Below are positions 3,755 to 44,137 of a stretch of 64,000 nucleotides of DNA, piece by piece. The notes beneath the pieces were generated by a model. That model saw nothing but the letters and a program-made list of their open reading frames with translations. It made no database searches and was not told the DNA's origin. The translations under genes and the position numbers were made by a program. The number at the start of each line of letters is the position of its first letter. Within the stretch, counting starts at the first letter, position 1. The DNA is taken from assembly GCF_004349055.1 (NCBI RefSeq), contig NZ_SMKX01000006.1:1-64000 (forward strand), read 5' to 3'. This stretch comes from Kribbella antibiotica (GTDB lineage: Bacteria; Actinomycetota; Actinomycetes; Propionibacteriales; Kribbellaceae).

Positions 3755-4138
3755 CTACTTGGTGGCTTGACCTCGCCGGGCCCACCGGAACGCGACGGCC
3801 GTCCAGAGGATGGCCGGCACGCCGAAGATCGCTGCCGCGACCTCGCGGCCGAAGACCAGGAACACCAGCCCCAGCAGGAAGAACGGCGCCGCCAGCCAGG
3901 CGGCGCCAACAAATGCCGCCCAGCGCCAGCGACCGGTCGGCCGCGGCGTTGGCTGGTACAGCGACGGAGTGGGTAGGCCCACGAAGATCGGCTGCAGATC
4001 GGCATGCGTGACCGCCTCATGCAGCCGGTCGACCCGCAGATGCAGCTCCGCCTCGTCGAGCCGGCCGATCGCAAACTGCTCGGACAGCTCGTCGGTACAG
4101 ACCCGCCGTTCCTCATCGGTCAGCCGGATACTGGCCAT
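3755..4138 (-). CDS. DUF1707 membrane protein
   Basis: From ATG 4138 the product has 127 residues. Residues 1-50 (MASIRLTDEERRVCTDELSE..., with GRLDEAELHLRVDRLHEAVT) match the DUF1707 pattern common at the N-terminus of small actinobacterial membrane proteins. Two hydrophobic helices follow, and the tail is basic. The frame is open back to an ATG at 4240, but the intervening Arg/Ala-rich residues do not look conserved. It converges with the lacI-type gene with a 6-bp gap. Function is unknown; DUF1707 is thought to be a non-enzymatic binding or regulatory module. Confidence 0.7.
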   Translation of the reverse strand: MASIRLTDEERRVCTDELSEQFAIGRLDEAELHLRVDRLHEAVTHADLQPIFVGLPTPSLYQPTPRPTGRWRWAAFVGAAWLAAPFFLLGLVFLVFGREVAAAIFGVPAILWTAVAFRWARRGQATK

Positions 4139-4282
4139 GCGTCGTCGCGCCGCGACAACGCGTGCCTCCTGACCAGCAGCCGCCGCCCGACCCATCAGGT
4201 CAGCCGGCTTCACCGGACGCCGCTCCACCATCCGCCTCACGCTCCCTTCCTACGAGTGTGCCAGACGATGGGGCAGCGCCAG

Positions 4283-4444
4283 GTCGGGTGTGGCGGCCCA
4301 GCGCCGTAGCGAGCAAGTGCTCGGTGCGGTGCATCGGTGCGCTGGAGGGGAGGCCTCGATGCTTTTCCATCGTGGCCTTTCCTCCAGTGCGGCGAGGTGC
4401 CGTGCCGAGTGCTGCGCAGTAGGTGATGGGTCGCCACACCCGAC
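4283..4444. repeat. Long-hairpin intergenic element, copy 1
   Basis: A 162-bp imperfect palindrome fills the space between purL and the DUF1707 gene. The outer arms GTCGGGTGTGGCGGCCCA (4283-4300) and TGGGTCGCCACACCCGAC (4427-4444) match at 17 of 18 positions. Pairing continues inward with interruptions to the apex CCTCGATG (4354-4361), loop CTTTTC, CATCGTGG (4368-4375). The apex and flanking GGAGG...TCCTCC and GCGAGGTGC blocks recur in the element at 43014-43180, so the two form a repeat family. It may act as a purL terminator, an RNA structure or a non-autonomous mobile element. Confidence 0.65.
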
Positions 4445-4458
4445 CAAGGTCCTCAGAG

Positions 4459-36821: not shown

Positions 36822-39800
36822 TTAGGCGTCGGTGGGGCGGTGGAGGGTTTCCAGGAGGTGGGTTAGCACTTTGTCTGGGGATTGGATCCAGTCGGCGGTG
36901 AGGACGTGGTGGACTCGCCAGCCGGTGGTTTTGAGGGCGGCTGGGTGGGTGGTGAGGCGTTCTAGGAGGGTGTCGGCGGAGACTCGGGCTGGGGTGTCTA
37001 CGAGGACTGCCATGCGGTAGCCGGGGTCGCCGGGGAGGCGGAGGGCCAGGTCGCAGCGGAAGACGGAGTTGCCGACGGTGGTTTCGACCTCGACGCCATG
37101 GGCTTCCAGCGCCTCGCGGAGTTGGGTGACAACGGCAGCCTGTACGGCGGTAGCAGTCGCCGGTGCGGACGCGCGACGGGCTGGGGCGGTGAACGAGGCG
37201 AGCGCGGCGCGGGCTGCGGGGACGTCGCCTCGGGAGACTGCGGAGGCGTAGCCGAGGAATCGGCGGAGGGTGTTGGCGCCGTCGTTGTAGGTGTTGGTGA
37301 TCGCCTCGGGCTCGATGCTGCTGACGACGACCATGTGGTGGCGGGCTCGGCTGAAGATGACGTTCAGGCGCTTCTCACCGCCGGAGGTGTTGATCGGGCC
37401 GAAGTTCATCAGCATGCGGCCGTCGGCACCGGCGGCGTAGCAGACGCTCATCAGGATGATGTCGCGCTCGTCGCCCTGGACGTTCTCCAGGTTCTTCACG
37501 AACAGGCCGACGTCTTGCTCGCCCTGCGTCCGCACCTGTTCCGCGTCGTAGAGCGCGCCGAACTCAGGATCGCCCTCCGCCAGTTCGTCCAGCGCACGCT
37601 CGATTTCGGTCTGCTGGGCCTCGGAGAACGCGACAATCCCGATGCTCTTCCCGGTCTCCCGCGACAACAGCTCTCGCACGAGTTCCGCGATCCAGCGGGC
37701 CTCGGCCGGGTTGGTCCGCCGTACGTAGACGCCGTCGGCCAGCCGGATCGAGGTGATGCTGCCGTTCAGCAGGCTGTCGCAGACCTCGCTCACCATCGGC
37801 GCGTCCGAGCGCAGGAGCCACGGCGGCGCGACGTTGGCCGGGAGCCGATCCGGGACTGTGGCCAGCCGGCTTTGGTAGAACGCCGAGTTGCTGAACGAAA
37901 TCAGCGCCTCCGAACGACTGCGGTAGTGCCAGGTGAGCATCGTGGAGGCGAGTCGCAGCGCACTGATCGAGAGGAAGCTGTCCTCTGTCAACGCGACCCC
38001 GACCTGCTCCGAGGACTCCTCCTCAAGATCCCCATCCGAGCGGACCCGGAAGTACTGCGTCGGCGGCAGCTGCATCTGGTCGCCGACGACGACCACCTGC
38101 GGCGCCCGATGGAGGGCCGGAATCGCTTCCTCCACTGGGATCTGGCTCGCCTCGTCGTACACGACGACATCGAAGTCCGCGGTCAGTGGCAACGTGTCCG
38201 ACACCGACGACGGACTCATCAACCAGACCGGCCGGAGCGCAGACACCACGGCACCCGGAGCACCCGAAGCCAGGTCGCGGATCGACCGGTACCGCATCAC
38301 CTTGCCGAACTCGTGCTCCACCTCCCGCCGTCCGGTCGCGAACTGCTTCTTCCGAGCGCGGTCGTCCGGCGACATCCCGGTGACGCTCTGCTCGGAATGC
38401 TGAACCTCAGCGAGGAACCGCCGCCGAACCCCCGCGACGATCACCTCCGCCTCGAGCTCGGTCAGCTCGTCGTACACGACTCCCAGCTCGCCGACGATCG
38501 AATCCACCCGCGCTGACGGCAACCGCAGCGCCGCGGCCGATCGGGCCCGCTCCCATTCCGCCGCACACACGGAGTACTCAAGCTCATCAGGTGACGCGTC
38601 CAATCGCCGTACCGCGGTCTGCACGGTCGTCGATGCGGTCTGCAATTCGCGCAGCACCGGACCGACCGCCCGCACGACAGAGTCCGCGGCGATGAGTCGA
38701 TCCACCATCTCGCGGAGCGCGTCGACAGTCAGCGCCGCGTACTCCGCATCCAGCAGCTCCTGCGTCGGCCCCGAGGCAGCATCAAGCGCGCCCGCCAGCA
38801 ACACCAACCGCTCCGGTACGCCGTCCGCCAGCGCGAACCGCCAATCCGGCAACCGGGAATCAGCGCGGACCGCGGCCAGCCGCTCGACCAGCTCGCGCGG
38901 ATCGTCCACGCCCCACTCGGCCCGCTGCTGCTCGGCATGCGCAACCACTGCTGCAGTCGCCGAATGTGCAGCCACCAAGTCCGTCAGTATCTCCACCACG
39001 GCCGGCCGCACGGCCCGGCCCGAGCTGTCGAACCGGCTGTTCACCAGGCTCTTGACGCGTCGCCAATCCCCAGCCAGGAAGGAAAAAGGACCACCTTCCT
39101 TGCTCTGGGCAATGATCAGGGCCGACTTGGCATCGGCCGGAGCCAACGGCTCACTCCACCCCGCTGCACCCTCCCAAGCACTCCGCTCGGCGCCGGCCAA
39201 TCGCTCTCGCTCCGCGGCACTCGAGGCGAGACGCATGGCAGCATCCGAGCGTGGATCCAGCGCCTGCGCCCGATCCCGCCCGGCTAGGGGCGCCAACACC
39301 CGCCCCAACCTGGCGAGCGCCGCCACCTGACCCACAGTCCAATCACTCTCAGCCTCGGCTGTGATTGCTGCGGTTAGGGCGTCGGCAACGGTCGTCCATG
39401 CAGTGCGGACTGTGCGGGCGCGGTCGGACAGCTCGTCATCCGCCCAGCGAGCGGCAGCTACGTAGGCCAATGGGCTCCGAGCCAGCACTCCTCCGGTCTG
39501 CGGATCGGCGCTCGCCAGCTCTCGAGCTATCGCACGGACGGCATCGCGCGCAGGCCACCACTCGGCGGCCCGCGGAATCAGGTCGCCCTCAGCCTCGAAG
39601 CGATGGTCACGGAGCTCGGCGAGGCGGTCGACAACCTCCCGGAGCCGGGGTGAGCCCGCAGCCAGGATGCCCTCGAAATCGCCGACGGCGACCAGCAACC
39701 GGTCAACCCGGGCGACCAACTCGGAGCGCCGTTCGGTCAACTCGTCGAGGTTGTCCTCGCTGGCCAGCCAGGCTTCGTAGGTCTCGCGCAGCCCGTGCAC

Positions 39801-41849
39801 GAACGCCTTCTTGTCCGCCTGCGAGTCGTGGATCAGCGTGCACAACCCGTCCAGCCGCCGGCTCGCCAGCCGCGCGTGCACAACATCCAGCGCCGCCCGC
39901 TTCTGGCACACGAACAGCACTCGCTGCCCGCGCGCCACGAAGTCCGCGATCATGTTGGTGATCGTCTGCGACTTCCCCGTCCCCGGCGGCCCTTGGATCA
40001 CAAAGCTCTCGCCACGCTGCGCCCGCGCGATCGCACCGACCTGCGAACCGTCCGCCGGCACGACGAGGTGTCGCTCCCCCACCGGCAGCTCCGGCGGCAC
40101 CGGGCTGATCGGTCGCGGCCGATCCGAGAACAACTGATCGAACGACGCCGCGCTCTCACCCGAAGAAAGCAGCTCGTCGTAGTCGCGGACCAGCCCCAAC
40201 GTCCGGTAGTTGAAGTTCGCCAGCGACACCGCACACAAGTCGACGTCCCACGAATACGGTCCGCCGCCCGTGTCGAGCGAATAGGTGTCAGTCTCGATCG
40301 CCGCCGGATGCCGCGGCTCCGCGCCCAGCGCGACCCCCAGCGGCAGCACCTGCTGGACGATCTGCGACCGGAAGATCTGCACCCCGAGCGGCTGATAGTC
40401 CGACCGCCGGTACGAATACGCATACTGCTTGCCCGTGAAACCGACAGCTCCGCGCCGCTTGCCCCGCTGGTAGCTGCGCAGTTTCACGATCGCCCGCTGC
40501 CGCACGAGGTCGATCCGCGGCTTCTCCTGCAGGTGCAGCTGCAACCCTGGCTCGGTCGCCTGAATCTCCTTCGCCAGCCGCTCGTGGAGCATCATCAGCG
40601 CACCACGCTCGGACAGATCCACCGTCTCCGGCAACGTGATCCCGTACAGCTGATGCAAGTGATGACGCAGTGTCGGATTGACCTCGGCGATCGGATCAGT
40701 CACCCGGATCGTGTACGAGTCACGCACTCCGCGCTTCTTCGCCAGCTCAACCTTCACCAGGACCAAGGGCGAGGCCAGTCGCGTCCCCGGATCGTTCTTC
40801 AGGTCATGCCAGCGCAGGAACGCCGGCACCAACCGCAACTGATCCTGCCCGTACTCCGTCCGGTCCCGACGCGCCGTCGCGATCAGCTTGTCCAGCGTGC
40901 TCGCCGCGTACGGCGCCTCGTCGTACCGGATCCACTTACCGAGCGCCTGGGTCTTCCCCAGCAGTTGCGCTGCCAGGTCGTCGCGCCACGTGAACAACTG
41001 CTCCGCGCGGATCGTGCGGACGTCGAGCATCAGCGGCACCGACACCTCGGTCAGGTTCAGCGTCTGGCCGGTCGGGCGGAAGTTGATCAACCGGTTCCGC
41101 CGCGACAGATCAAAGAGCCGGTTCCGGAGCGCGCCGAGCACCGCCGTACGGCGGTCAGCTCCCGCAGCCGTGATCGCGGTGACGTCGAAGTCGAGCGGCT
41201 GGTCGCGGTAGTTCTCCAGCTGCTCGATCAGCGAGTGCAGATCCTGCGCCCGGCGGTGCCGATCCGGCTCGGCCATCTGCGCGGCGATCGAGACGATCAC
41301 CGGATGCAGTTGCGGCGCCAGCCGATAAAGGTTGCCGCGGGCATCGATCAGCTCGGCCACGTCCTCCGGACGGGACAGATCCAGGCCGATCCCCAGCGCC
41401 AGCAGTAGCTGGCCGAGGCTGTAGACATCGGTCAGCGGGTCGTGATGGCCGACCACGTGCTCCCAGCTCTGCCACCCCGGCACATGCGTCGGCGCAGTGA
41501 TCGCATCCGGAACGGGCTCAACCACCGACGTCTTGGCCCGACCACCGTCCGAACCGAGATCCAGCTCCGCCTGGCGATGCGCCACCACCTCGACGGCCGA
41601 GCTTCGTGGCCCCTGGCGACGGTCGATCTCCATCACGGCCAGGGTCGGTCGCCCGGCATCCTCGGGCCCGAACCCAAGCTGATGCTGATCATCAACAGTC
41701 AGCCGATCCAGCCCACGCAGCGGCGCCACCAGCCCTCGCTCGTGCACCTCGGCAGTCGCCCGGAACAGCGGCAGCACTGCGGCGAGCAGCGCATCGCTCC
41801 CGAGGCCATCCTCGGTCACGGCCAGCACGACCAACTCTTCGGCGCTCAC
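36822..41849 (-). CDS. Pseudokinase-DUF4011-SF1 helicase-Vsr-like nuclease
   Basis: This 1675-residue protein starts at GTG 41849, overlapping the protease stop as GTGA. Residues ~25-220 resemble a kinase C-lobe (AEVHERGLV, WQSWE, DVYSLGQLLLAL) whose HRD and DFG are replaced. Residues ~238-600 hold a DUF4011 region (ALRNRLFDLSRRNRLINF). A split superfamily 1 helicase follows: Walker A GPPGTGKSQT with K626, Walker B VVYDEASQIP with D1232-E1233, then LTWHYRSRSEALI, VQGDERDIILMSV and RLNVIFSRAR. Residues ~1570-1675 are a Vsr/MTES_1575-like nuclease (FRCDLALRLPGD with D1600, AVLVDTP, WRVHHVLTADWI). The DUF4011-helicase-Vsr core resembles the anti-phage protein Hhe. The protease partner and pseudokinase lobe suggest a protease-coupled nucleic-acid defence system, which is inferred. 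Confidence 0.85.
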   Translation of the reverse strand: MSAEELVVLAVTEDGLGSDALLAAVLPLFRATAEVHERGLVAPLRGLDRLTVDDQHQLGFGPEDAGRPTLAVMEIDRRQGPRSSAVEVVAHRQAELDLGSDGGRAKTSVVEPVPDAITAPTHVPGWQSWEHVVGHHDPLTDVYSLGQLLLALGIGLDLSRPEDVAELIDARGNLYRLAPQLHPVIVSIAAQMAEPDRHRRAQDLHSLIEQLENYRDQPLDFDVTAITAAGADRRTAVLGALRNRLFDLSRRNRLINFRPTGQTLNLTEVSVPLMLDVRTIRAEQLFTWRDDLAAQLLGKTQALGKWIRYDEAPYAASTLDKLIATARRDRTEYGQDQLRLVPAFLRWHDLKNDPGTRLASPLVLVKVELAKKRGVRDSYTIRVTDPIAEVNPTLRHHLHQLYGITLPETVDLSERGALMMLHERLAKEIQATEPGLQLHLQEKPRIDLVRQRAIVKLRSYQRGKRRGAVGFTGKQYAYSYRRSDYQPLGVQIFRSQIVQQVLPLGVALGAEPRHPAAIETDTYSLDTGGGPYSWDVDLCAVSLANFNYRTLGLVRDYDELLSSGESAASFDQLFSDRPRPISPVPPELPVGERHLVVPADGSQVGAIARAQRGESFVIQGPPGTGKSQTITNMIADFVARGQRVLFVCQKRAALDVVHARLASRRLDGLCTLIHDSQADKKAFVHGLRETYEAWLASEDNLDELTERRSELVARVDRLLVAVGDFEGILAAGSPRLREVVDRLAELRDHRFEAEGDLIPRAAEWWPARDAVRAIARELASADPQTGGVLARSPLAYVAAARWADDELSDRARTVRTAWTTVADALTAAITAEAESDWTVGQVAALARLGRVLAPLAGRDRAQALDPRSDAAMRLASSAAERERLAGAERSAWEGAAGWSEPLAPADAKSALIIAQSKEGGPFSFLAGDWRRVKSLVNSRFDSSGRAVRPAVVEILTDLVAAHSATAAVVAHAEQQRAEWGVDDPRELVERLAAVRADSRLPDWRFALADGVPERLVLLAGALDAASGPTQELLDAEYAALTVDALREMVDRLIAADSVVRAVGPVLRELQTASTTVQTAVRRLDASPDELEYSVCAAEWERARSAAALRLPSARVDSIVGELGVVYDELTELEAEVIVAGVRRRFLAEVQHSEQSVTGMSPDDRARKKQFATGRREVEHEFGKVMRYRSIRDLASGAPGAVVSALRPVWLMSPSSVSDTLPLTADFDVVVYDEASQIPVEEAIPALHRAPQVVVVGDQMQLPPTQYFRVRSDGDLEEESSEQVGVALTEDSFLSISALRLASTMLTWHYRSRSEALISFSNSAFYQSRLATVPDRLPANVAPPWLLRSDAPMVSEVCDSLLNGSITSIRLADGVYVRRTNPAEARWIAELVRELLSRETGKSIGIVAFSEAQQTEIERALDELAEGDPEFGALYDAEQVRTQGEQDVGLFVKNLENVQGDERDIILMSVCYAAGADGRMLMNFGPINTSGGEKRLNVIFSRARHHMVVVSSIEPEAITNTYNDGANTLRRFLGYASAVSRGDVPAARAALASFTAPARRASAPATATAVQAAVVTQLREALEAHGVEVETTVGNSVFRCDLALRLPGDPGYRMAVLVDTPARVSADTLLERLTTHPAALKTTGWRVHHVLTADWIQSPDKVLTHLLETLHRPTDA

Positions 41850-43003
41850 TCGGCCGCCTCCCCGACCAGCCGAGCGCGTTCCTTGTCGCTCCACCCGAGC
41901 TCGCTGTCCGCAACATCGACGTACCCACCAAGCCCAGTACGACGGGCAATCCCGAGCGACGCGATCAGCCCATCAGCACCGGTATCGGGATCAGCGGTGG
42001 CCAGGTCCAGCAGCAGGTACGCCAGATAGCGCCTGGTGGAGTCGGCCAACGGCCGGGGTCGAGGCAATGGCGCGCCATCAACCGGCCGCACCGTCAGCGG
42101 CTCGTCGAACCGCAACACCGACCCAGGCACCCCCAACGGCCCCGGCGGATCCGCGAACCCGGCCGCCGCCACCGCGACCGCTTCCGTCGCCAACCCGTCC
42201 GTCCCAGCGATCAACGCCGCGAAGTCCCGACTGACCTCAGCCAGCAACTCGGCATCGAGCAGATCGGGCGCATCCACGTCGAGCGCGCCGGTGACCACGG
42301 ACTCCACGTTCTCCTCCGCCAGCCAGCCCTTCAACGCCCAGGCCCGCATCACCGCCTCGGGATGCGACGTCCCCCGGCTCCCCGAACTCAGATCGACCGT
42401 CTCCGCCTGCCGCAGGTACGCCGCCGGGTCCGCCGAACTCAGCCCGGTCTCCAGCTTCAGCAACGCGCGAATCGTCGTACCGAGGTCGCCGCACGCGGTC
42501 AGTGCACCGCGGTCGGCAAACAGCTCGGTCGCCAGCGACCAGCGTCGATGCGTCTCCAGATATTGCGCCGACGTCCGCGCGTCACCCGCCGCCGCATCAA
42601 GCAAACGATCGACAGCGAGATACGCGCCGTCCTCGCTCTGCCACAACAGCCGATGGGCCAGCTCGTGCCCAATGACGGCCGTCAGCTCGTCTTCGTCCAG
42701 CCGATCGATCAGGGCGCCCTGGAACAGCACGACCGCCCGCCCAGCCTGATGCAGGTACGACGCGTTGGGCGCGCCGTTCACCTGGTAATACTCGACCGCG
42801 CTGTCCATCTCGAGGGCCTCAGCAGCACGCTGACCGGCCCGATGCACGCCCGGGTGTGCGTCAGCGGTCAGGAGATAGGCATTCCGGCGCAAGGCATCGT
42901 CGAGCTCGCCGTCGGGCGCACCCCGCAACGCAGCCCACGCAGCCTCGTCCTGACGGCGGACAACCGTCAGGACGGCTCGGTGATAACCCAGGACGGACAA
43001 CAT
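41846..43003 (-). CDS. Soluble M48-like zinc metalloprotease
   Basis: The 385-residue protein has the zinc protease motif VIGHELAHRLL (H113, E114, H117) and a downstream ELFADRGAL (E160...D164) matching the ExxAD third-ligand motif of M48 peptidases. An M48-type HEAT/TPR-like C-terminal region without membrane helices follows. M48 enzymes such as HtpX and BepA are usually membrane-bound or periplasmic; this one has no signal or transmembrane segment, so it should act in the cytoplasm. ATG 43003 lies 10 bp from a long palindromic element. It is translationally coupled to the pseudokinase-helicase-nuclease gene. A role in cleaving a host or phage protein after helicase activation is a hypothesis. 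Confidence 0.8.
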   Translation of the reverse strand: MLSVLGYHRAVLTVVRRQDEAAWAALRGAPDGELDDALRRNAYLLTADAHPGVHRAGQRAAEALEMDSAVEYYQVNGAPNASYLHQAGRAVVLFQGALIDRLDEDELTAVIGHELAHRLLWQSEDGAYLAVDRLLDAAAGDARTSAQYLETHRRWSLATELFADRGALTACGDLGTTIRALLKLETGLSSADPAAYLRQAETVDLSSGSRGTSHPEAVMRAWALKGWLAEENVESVVTGALDVDAPDLLDAELLAEVSRDFAALIAGTDGLATEAVAVAAAGFADPPGPLGVPGSVLRFDEPLTVRPVDGAPLPRPRPLADSTRRYLAYLLLDLATADPDTGADGLIASLGIARRTGLGGYVDVADSELGWSDKERARLVGEAAE

Positions 43004-43013
43004 GGCGGCAACC

Positions 43014-43180
43014 TAGTGTCGGGAGTCGGGAGGTCGGCGAGTGCCGGAGGGGTCCAGGTGCGTGCATCGCAAGGCGGAGGAGCGTCCTCGATGCGGTGTT
43101 CATCGTGGATGCTTCTCCAACGCAGCGAGGTGCGTGCCTGGGCGCCTCCGGTGCCGTCGAACTTCTGACTCCCGACACTA
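43014..43180. repeat. Long-hairpin element, copy 2, with perfect terminal repeats
   Basis: The element begins TAGTGTCGGGAGTC (43014-43027) and ends GACTCCCGACACTA (43167-43180), perfect 14-bp terminal inverted repeats. Pairing continues inward (GGAGGTCGGCG/CGTCGAACTTCT, CCGGAGG/CCTCCGG) to the apex CCTCGATG (43086-43093), CATCGTGG (43101-43108). The core matches copy 1 at 4283-4444. It occupies most of the space between the siderophore ATPase and the protease gene and forms the upstream region of the protease operon. No transposase is nearby. A MITE-like repeat or a structured RNA leader are both possible. Confidence 0.7.
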
Positions 43181-43207
43181 ATCGGGCCCGCCGACAAATT
43201 GGATCGG

Positions 43208-44137
43208 TCAGCGTTCCGAGGGCTTGCAGACCCCGTTCGCGGCCGCCGAAGCAGCTAGTGCGGCCACGGCGGAGTTGCTCGCAACCATGTCCTGAACGCG
43301 GTCGGTCCGGGTGGTGTGCCGACCCAGCGGCACGACCATCGGCGTACCGGCGACCGGGTCCGGGATGATCTTCACGTGCAGCCCGAAGACGTCGTGCACG
43401 ACCTCTTCGGTGATCACGTCCGCCGGGTTGCCCTTGGCAACGATCGCGCCGTTCTTCATCGCGATCAGGTGGTCGCCGAACCGGCAGGCCTGGTTCAGGT
43501 CGTGCAGCACCAGGACGATGGTGCGGTTGTCGCGCTTGTTCAGGTCGACGAGCAGATCGAGGACCTCGAACTGATGCGTCAGGTCGAGGAAGGTGGTCGG
43601 CTCGTCGAGCAGCAGGATGTCGGTCTCCTGGGCGAGCGCCATCGCGATCCAGACCCGCTGGCGCTGACCACCGGACAGCTCGTCGATCGGCCGGTCGGCG
43701 AGCTCCAGGACGCTGGTCGAGGTCATCGCGTCCGCGACCGCCTCGTCGTCGGCCTTGGTCCACTGCCGGATCCAGCGCGTCCGCGGGTAGCGGCCGCGAC
43801 CGACCAGGTCGGCGACCGTGATGCCTTCCGGCGCGGTCGGTGACTGCGGCAGCAGACCCAGCTGGGTGGCGACCTCACGGGTCGGGATCGACTGAATGCT
43901 CTTGCCGTCCAGCAGCACCCTGCCCTTGGACGGCTTGAGCAGCCGGGCCAGTGTCTTCAGCAGCGTGGACTTACCGCACGCGTTCGCGCCGACGATGACG
44001 GTGATCTTGCCGGTGGGGATCTCGACCGACAGGTCGGCGATGATCTGCCGCTGGTCGTAGCCGACGGCCAGCCCCTCGGCCGCAAGGCTGTGCTTGGTCT
44101 CGGGCTTCTCCACGGAGTTCTCCATCTCAGCCACCAC
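43208..44137 (-). CDS. Iron-siderophore ABC transporter ATP-binding protein
   Basis: This 309-residue FepC/FecE-type ATPase has Walker A GANACGKST, signature LSGGQRQRVWIAMAL, Walker B ILLLDEPTTFLD and switch His VLVLHDLNQA, with the family segment GLLPQSPTAPEGITVADLVGRGRYP. The first codon is GTG 44137, with in-frame alternatives GTG 44134 and ATG 44125; the upstream permease ends at 44127. It energises the two FecCD permeases. The ~40-residue Ala-rich C-terminal tail is longer than in most relatives. Confidence 0.93.
   Translation of the reverse strand: MVAEMENSVEKPETKHSLAAEGLAVGYDQRQIIADLSVEIPTGKITVIVGANACGKSTLLKTLARLLKPSKGRVLLDGKSIQSIPTREVATQLGLLPQSPTAPEGITVADLVGRGRYPRTRWIRQWTKADDEAVADAMTSTSVLELADRPIDELSGGQRQRVWIAMALAQETDILLLDEPTTFLDLTHQFEVLDLLVDLNKRDNRTIVLVLHDLNQACRFGDHLIAMKNGAIVAKGNPADVITEEVVHDVFGLHVKIIPDPVAGTPMVVPLGRHTTRTDRVQDMVASNSAVAALAASAAANGVCKPSER

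Follow-up and report, generated by a model that had tools for sequence, protein, structure and literature searches.

Why does a 167-bp hairpin with perfect inverted ends stand directly in front of a protease operon, and how did it get there? The locus lies in a 64,000-nt stretch of the Kribbella antibiotica genome (RefSeq assembly GCF_004349055.1, contig NZ_SMKX01000006.1, positions 1 to 64,000; here, the window). A first-pass annotation, made from the letters alone, had offered two possibilities: a non-autonomous mobile element that brought or rewired the operon, or a structured leader that controls it. Our analysis indicates that the hairpin is very probably a miniature inverted-repeat transposable element (MITE) of the IS630/Tc1-mariner type that inserted, by cut-and-paste, into the TA opening the PafBC-type -10 box of an M48 peptidase/helicase-nuclease operon. 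Two features go beyond a standard MITE, namely, arms that vary yet remain complementary and an orientation locked to the replichore.

An element in the -10 box of a PafBC-type promoter

The features at the insertion site are as follows.

43014-43180, + strand (the strand with the stronger fold): probable hairpin MITE, subfamily A, 167 bp
43014-43027, + strand: left terminal inverted repeat, perfect, 14 bp, TAGTGTCGGGAGTC, beginning with the target TA
43167-43180, + strand: right terminal inverted repeat, perfect, 14 bp, GACTCCCGACACTA, ending with the target TA
43014-43015, no strand: first copy of the TA target duplicate, from comparison with empty orthologous sites
43179-43180, no strand: second copy of the TA target duplicate, from the same comparison
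43055-43069, + strand: conserved core motif CAGGTGCGTGCATCG, on the left side of the stem
43175-43197, - strand: PafBC/P1-type promoter TTGTCGGCG-N8-TAGTGT across the element boundary, TAGTGT coming from the element (pattern match)
43010-43015, - strand: TAGGTT, the original -10 box beside the protease ATG, cut off from the activator motif
41846-43003, - strand: M48-family metallopeptidase gene, its promoter interrupted by the element

The two ends are exact inverted copies, as the first-pass annotation had claimed, and the coordinates confirm its 10-bp gap between the element and the protease ATG. The near-complete pairing that it described up to the apex is recovered by RNA folding: positions 43004-43190 have a minimum free energy of -136.1 kcal/mol against a shuffle mean of -82.1 (z score of -11.9), a value that none of 200 shuffles equaled. 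The G+C content of the element is 66%.

Protease orthologs were collected from 24 of the other 37 genomes of the genus (E < 1e-140) and from 12 named genomes, two sets that possibly overlap. The element precedes the protease in none of the 24 genus orthologs outside the own genome and in none of the 12 named ones. The proposed check for empty sites and target-site duplications thus gave 24 empty orthologs of 24 and a duplicated TA. That the segment might be old and without further copies, as the same annotation had allowed, is at odds with these empty sites and with the dispersed copies described below.

What did the element land in? The consensus of PafBC/P1 (RecA-NDp) promoters, as given in an excerpt of PMC5656591, is tTGTCRgtg-8 nt-TannnT. 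All 24 empty orthologs carry a conserved box that fits this consensus at 6 to 8 of 9 positions, with a fixed N8-TAnnnT spacing; in a random control, 2 of 5000 window stretches scored at least 6. The minus strand of the window reads TTGTCGGCG-GGCCCGAT-TA, then the element, then TA-GGTTGCCGCC-ATG, which places the element at the TA of the -10 box, with this TA duplicated. Because the element begins TAGTGT, which recreates TAnnnT, TTGTCGGCG-N8-TAGTGT is intact, and the PafBC/P1 pattern has one match in the window versus 0.01 expected. The earlier claim that the element contains or displaces the promoter is therefore upheld at the sequence level, the TA of the conserved PafBC-type -10 box being occupied. 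A one-base deletion upon insertion was considered and rejected: the flanks rejoin as TTGTCGGCG-N8-TAGGTT with 6 nt to the ATG, and two orthologs (L096 and L097) likewise have 6 nt.

In L083-L097, the 15 orthologs whose match starts at the shared ATG, 6 or 7 nt separate the -10 box from that ATG, and so the protease mRNA without the insertion is probably leaderless or nearly so. With the insertion, TAGTGT, composed of the target TA and the element end, may still act as a -10 box. Transcription from the activated start would then begin within the element and place the hairpin at the 5' end of the mRNA, which would be expected to lower or re-regulate translation. The operon being encoded on the minus strand, its mRNA would read the hairpin on the weaker strand (-86.0 kcal/mol as minus-strand RNA). 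Judging from the sequence, the promoter may have survived while an mRNA once almost leaderless gained a 167-nt hairpin, and a regulated structured leader at the protease operon is possible. The interest of the locus lies in a MITE placed exactly in a DNA-damage-type promoter whose -10 box it regenerates from its own end; the mRNA, nearly leaderless before, would thereby gain a strong hairpin leader.

Apart from the insertion, conservation of the PafBC-type promoter in front of the M48 peptidase operon in all 24 orthologs (L083-L106) suggests that this is a candidate, so far unrecognized, DNA-damage-response operon.

A dispersed family and its probable mover

The search for further copies that the first-pass annotation had called for found a large family. 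By blastn, the own genome has the element at 12 places (13 rows, one being the opposite strand of the element itself). A covariance model built from 40 copies (alignment A1; L013 and L011, the same place as L001 on the other strand, were excluded) matches 35 distinct places in the own genome (50 rows) and all 38 genomes of the genus, at 3 to 68 rows each, counts that include some copies on both strands. Across the order, matches occur in 68 of 196 genomes, representing 10 of 29 genera. The copies fall into two related subfamilies, A (165-169 nt, with the CAGGTGCGTGCATCG core) and B (mostly 167-168 nt), and the window holds one of each:

4280-4447, + strand (same orientation as the main element): second window copy, subfamily B, 168 nt

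Several copies are recent. One genome (G032) has copies 99.4 to 100% identical between unrelated flanks (L128/L191/L192); another (G016) has four identical copies and a fifth with one base difference, and a third (G028) has three identical copies and a fourth with two base differences. All nine of these G016 and G028 copies (L247-L251, L203, L204, L205, and L210) run from TA to TA, and in each a C precedes the opening TA and a G follows the closing one. Shortened copies of 105-118 bp lack the apex and still have matching arms (L208 and L213-L215); L213 and L215, from one genome (G027), are alike at different sites, and the short forms may therefore also move. Taken together, the dispersed and identical copies, the TA target, the empty orthologous sites, and the IS630-like ends described below bear out a non-autonomous mobile element.

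No longer, autonomous version with the same core was seen among the core-motif matches inspected in the own genome, G028, and G027. Of the 12 exact core matches in the own genome, 11 are elements already found by the covariance model; the twelfth (C88), along with a one-mismatch match (C144), lies in sequence without a model match. All 18 further exact matches inspected in G028 (13) and G027 (5) are elements, the G027 matches at 7194487 and 7889136 lying outside that inspection. No recurrent partner gene stands beside the copies: among 114 of 177 predicted flanking proteins scanned, 153 Pfam families were found, the commonest in 4 proteins. Phages gave no matches, and plasmids gave one weak partial match, in a Streptomyces plasmid. 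As a separate observation, the TAG at the element end is the stop codon of a neighboring gene in 21 of 90 copies, and in 4 of those 21 both convergent genes stop at an element TAG (e.g., L057 and L119).

Which enzyme moved the element? A TA target duplication and inverted repeats are the marks of IS630/Tc1-mariner elements (from the portion of PMC2170065 consulted), and an IS630-family transposase, now gone from the own genome, would have been the mover. The IS630 DDE_3 domain (PF13358) is found in 15 of the 38 genus genomes. We searched 30 IS630 loci for pairs of terminal inverted repeats with TA at the start as the sole requirement; 16 of them have such a pair, and all 16 begin TAGTG at both ends. 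Beyond this, 11 of 32 IS630 ends, not all of them independent, resemble an element arm so closely that no more than 1 of 500 shuffles does as well. The window element is the best match for the IS630 ends in L218, L220, L234, and L244 (19-21 of 28 positions), and the IS630 end of L223 agrees with a different element arm at 24 of 28. None of the 30 IS630 loci contains the hairpin core motif.

Several results weigh against an IS630 origin. DDE_3 has no match in the own genome and none in five element-rich genomes (G028, G023, G003, G018, and G030), and the difference in copy number with IS630 presence is not significant (P = 0.17). One IS630 lineage, TAGTGCCTC, which supplies 14 of the 32 ends, matches at chance level beyond TAGTG. 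TA...TA ends are found in 37 of 90 copies, the others differing at one or both ends. Lastly, the orientation lock described in the next section is missing from those IS630 transposase genes whose position relative to the origin is known (14 copies in three genomes). A non-autonomous copy can outlive its own transposase, yet the missing transposase is a gap in our account.

Replichore-locked orientation and complementary arms

With dnaA taken as the origin and the opposite point of the chromosome as the terminus, the + strand points toward the origin in 76 of 78 exact core-motif matches (five genomes) and in 117 of 118 model matches (six genomes; 28 of 28 in A and 89 of 90 in B-like matches, split at an arbitrary 110-bit cut). 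The two sets overlap and cover ten genomes overall, with G016 in both; 26 reverse-strand duplicate rows of 144 and the one-mismatch motif matches were left out, as was G000, whose contigs could not be placed relative to the origin. In G028, the orientation switches between 5,729,721 and 5,795,848, with dnaA at 5,757,530. Very recent identical copies obey the rule on both chromosome arms. By synteny with G012, G016, G002, G013, and G014, the window locus lies left of the origin at a distance of approximately 0.43 to 0.45 Mb, where the + orientation is expected, and this is the orientation of both window copies. With about 99% of its counted copies, fresh ones included, obeying replication direction, this genus-wide family offers clean, naturally occurring data on how the fork controls the orientation of mobile DNA or long hairpins.

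Such polarity could suit sequences kept as direction marks from origin to terminus for chromosome organization, and the near-uniform pointing toward the origin in both sets is what they would show. The copies are mobile, however, and range from 3 to 68 match rows per genome within a single genus, which leaves this explanation highly improbable. Nor do genes explain the lock: the neighbors of 90 copies run in the same direction as the element in 19 cases, opposite in 31, divergent in 25, and convergent in 14, with one not assigned, and 19 versus 31 is not a significant difference (P = 0.12).

The second unusual feature is the pairing of the arms. Median pairwise identity among copies is 72%, and their outer-arm pairs (90 distinct copies, after removal of one duplicate from 91 sequences) comprise 2778 Watson-Crick pairs of 3060, 207 G-U, 5 A-C, and 70 others. 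The 24 outermost pairs have 54 G-U versus 4 A-C. Because each G-U pair corresponds to an A-C mispair in the complementary strand, + is the strand kept foldable. Changes on both sides are found in 44 of 69 consensus pairs. The alignment of the 90 copies is fitted to the model, which leans toward structure, but it has few gaps. Comparison of same-site copies in four locus pairs gave 14 arm pairs changed on both sides and still Watson-Crick, 5 switches between Watson-Crick and G-U by one change, 3 pairs mismatched by one change, and 5 others; 10 of the 14 compensated pairs come from one locus pair whose flank identity is only 69 and 84%, and which possibly represents a re-insertion. We judged it unlikely that mutational strand bias produced the G-U excess: in the G028 stretches the leading strand is slightly G-rich, from which A-C would be expected on +. 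We also observed that AGGTGCGTGC, in the conserved core, is a direct repeat in both arms of subfamily A and pairs with itself via four nearly fixed G-U pairs; subfamily B looks similar there by eye.

These covarying arms, with their excess of G-U over A-C and compensated changes even between same-site copies, are what a cis-acting structured RNA (a leader, attenuator, or terminator) that evolved at the protease locus and was kept for gene control would show. That origin is nevertheless very unlikely, and as an account of how the hairpin arose at the protease locus we regard it as refuted. None of the 24 orthologs has the element, identical copies occupy unrelated sites, and orientation does not follow the genes, the reason for which we reject it. 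An Rfam scan of the window found no family at or above the gathering score, and the subthreshold matches were generic long hairpins of the miRNA-precursor type and were not accepted as a structured RNA family.

This leaves the question as to what imposes the lock. IS630 alone does not explain it, since the 14 IS630 transposase genes placed relative to the origin show none. Both fork-coupled, strand-specific insertion and rapid loss of the wrong orientation fit the lock and are live options; the cause we prefer is that the reverse orientation would not insert or would not survive at the fork. As DNA, the + strand folds more strongly in 90 of 90 A copies and 16 of 16 B copies (A mean, -78.7 versus -61.9 kcal/mol), and this stronger-hairpin strand is the leading-strand template, the weaker one being the lagging-strand template.

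Under selection after random insertion, a stronger hairpin on the lagging-strand template would be deleted or harmful, and we give this explanation of the lock a substantial chance that stays somewhat below even. It is favored by the consistently better DNA fold of + and by its placement, + serving as the leading-strand template in every counted match except 3; rapid loss would also favor A-C mispairs on the strand used as the lagging template, which read as G-U on +. Both strands fold very stably, however, recent identical copies already obey the rule, and two outliers tested (L206 and L212) have ordinary asymmetry. In the case of strand-specific insertion at the fork, one strand would fold as an obligate single-stranded form, of DNA or RNA, in the course of movement, and this would impose the lock, the excess of G-U over A-C, and a continuous mutual correction of the arms; the enzyme could be a DDE-type, TA-specific transposase or another. 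We put this forward tentatively, as possible rather than probable.

Single-stranded DNA movement at the fork by an HUH-type enzyme, as in IS200/IS605 or REP/RAYT elements, would account for the near-absolute orientation, recent copies included, and for covariation, with G-U in place of A-C mispairs, that marks one folded strand. We consider it unlikely and reject it for lack of a Y1 transposase (PF01797), which is present in 1 of 38 genus genomes and absent from the own genome. In addition, TA is duplicated, some IS630 ends match the element, and the strand that folds strongly lies away from the lagging-strand template, the one that IS608 is reported to use (PMC6006769, in part).

Operon neighborhood and comparison with known systems

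Two further genes flank the insertion on the same strand as the peptidase:

36822-41849, - strand: DUF4011/AAA helicase/MTES_1575 nuclease gene, downstream of the peptidase
43208-44137, - strand: siderophore-type ABC ATPase gene, upstream of the element

Upstream of the protease lies an operon for a FecCD-type siderophore transporter, and the named protease orthologs also indicate the genus Kribbella. The suggestion that the element brought the operon was not supported: the protease and helicase-nuclease genes also occur together in relatives without the element, and since the operon is conserved there, we reject delivery of the gene by the element. In Kribbella sindirgiensis, a model match lies between fecD-like and fhuC-like genes (L048, 2874-3040; L087, 3616-3782, apparently the same locus); it is an independent insertion in the same neighborhood, within the operon that directly precedes the protease. 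In Kribbella rubisoli, the interval from fhuC to the protease promoter contains an inverted repeat of a different kind, imperfect and without a model match (L047, approximately 3760-3960).

In the open literature, to which our search was confined, none of the papers listed describes the Kribbella hairpin family or a replichore-locked MITE. The terms replication, lagging, and IS630 are absent from a 2024 MITE review (PMC10969869) by term search.

The nearest parallels are other TA-ended elements. RUP of Streptococcus pneumoniae, 107 bp long and with IS630-Spn1 as its proposed mover, resembles the Kribbella element in being small, noncoding, and intergenic, with TA ends and terminal inverted repeats resembling those of IS630, in its case a resident one (PMC2229807, in part, here and below). 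Unlike RUP, the Kribbella element is 167 bp, GC rich, and a near-complete hairpin; its arms vary yet stay complementary, it is replichore locked, and its own genome has no DDE_3 match. The Correia/NEMIS elements of Neisseria, which we compared by description only, share TA ends, long terminal inverted repeats, long and short versions, a stem-loop RNA, and positions adjacent to genes; the sections of that source covering them mention no replichore lock. Bacterial MITEs are described there as A+T rich, versus 66% G+C here.

ISY100-type IS630/Tc1-mariner elements likewise duplicate TA and have short inverted repeats (PMC2170065, in part), and the Kribbella element shares its TAGTG ends with Kribbella IS630 copies; unlike them, it has no transposase gene, and its core motif is not in the 30 IS630 loci. 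With IS200/IS605 and REP/RAYT elements it has in common hairpins and a coupling to replication forks (as outlined in part of PMC6006769), and differs in that 37 of 38 genomes have no Y1 transposase and a target duplication is present. Its replication-following orientation (76/78 and 117/118) is IS200/IS605- or REP/RAYT-like without implying membership in either group. TA-targeting MITEs are already known; for such elements, a replichore lock is unusual.
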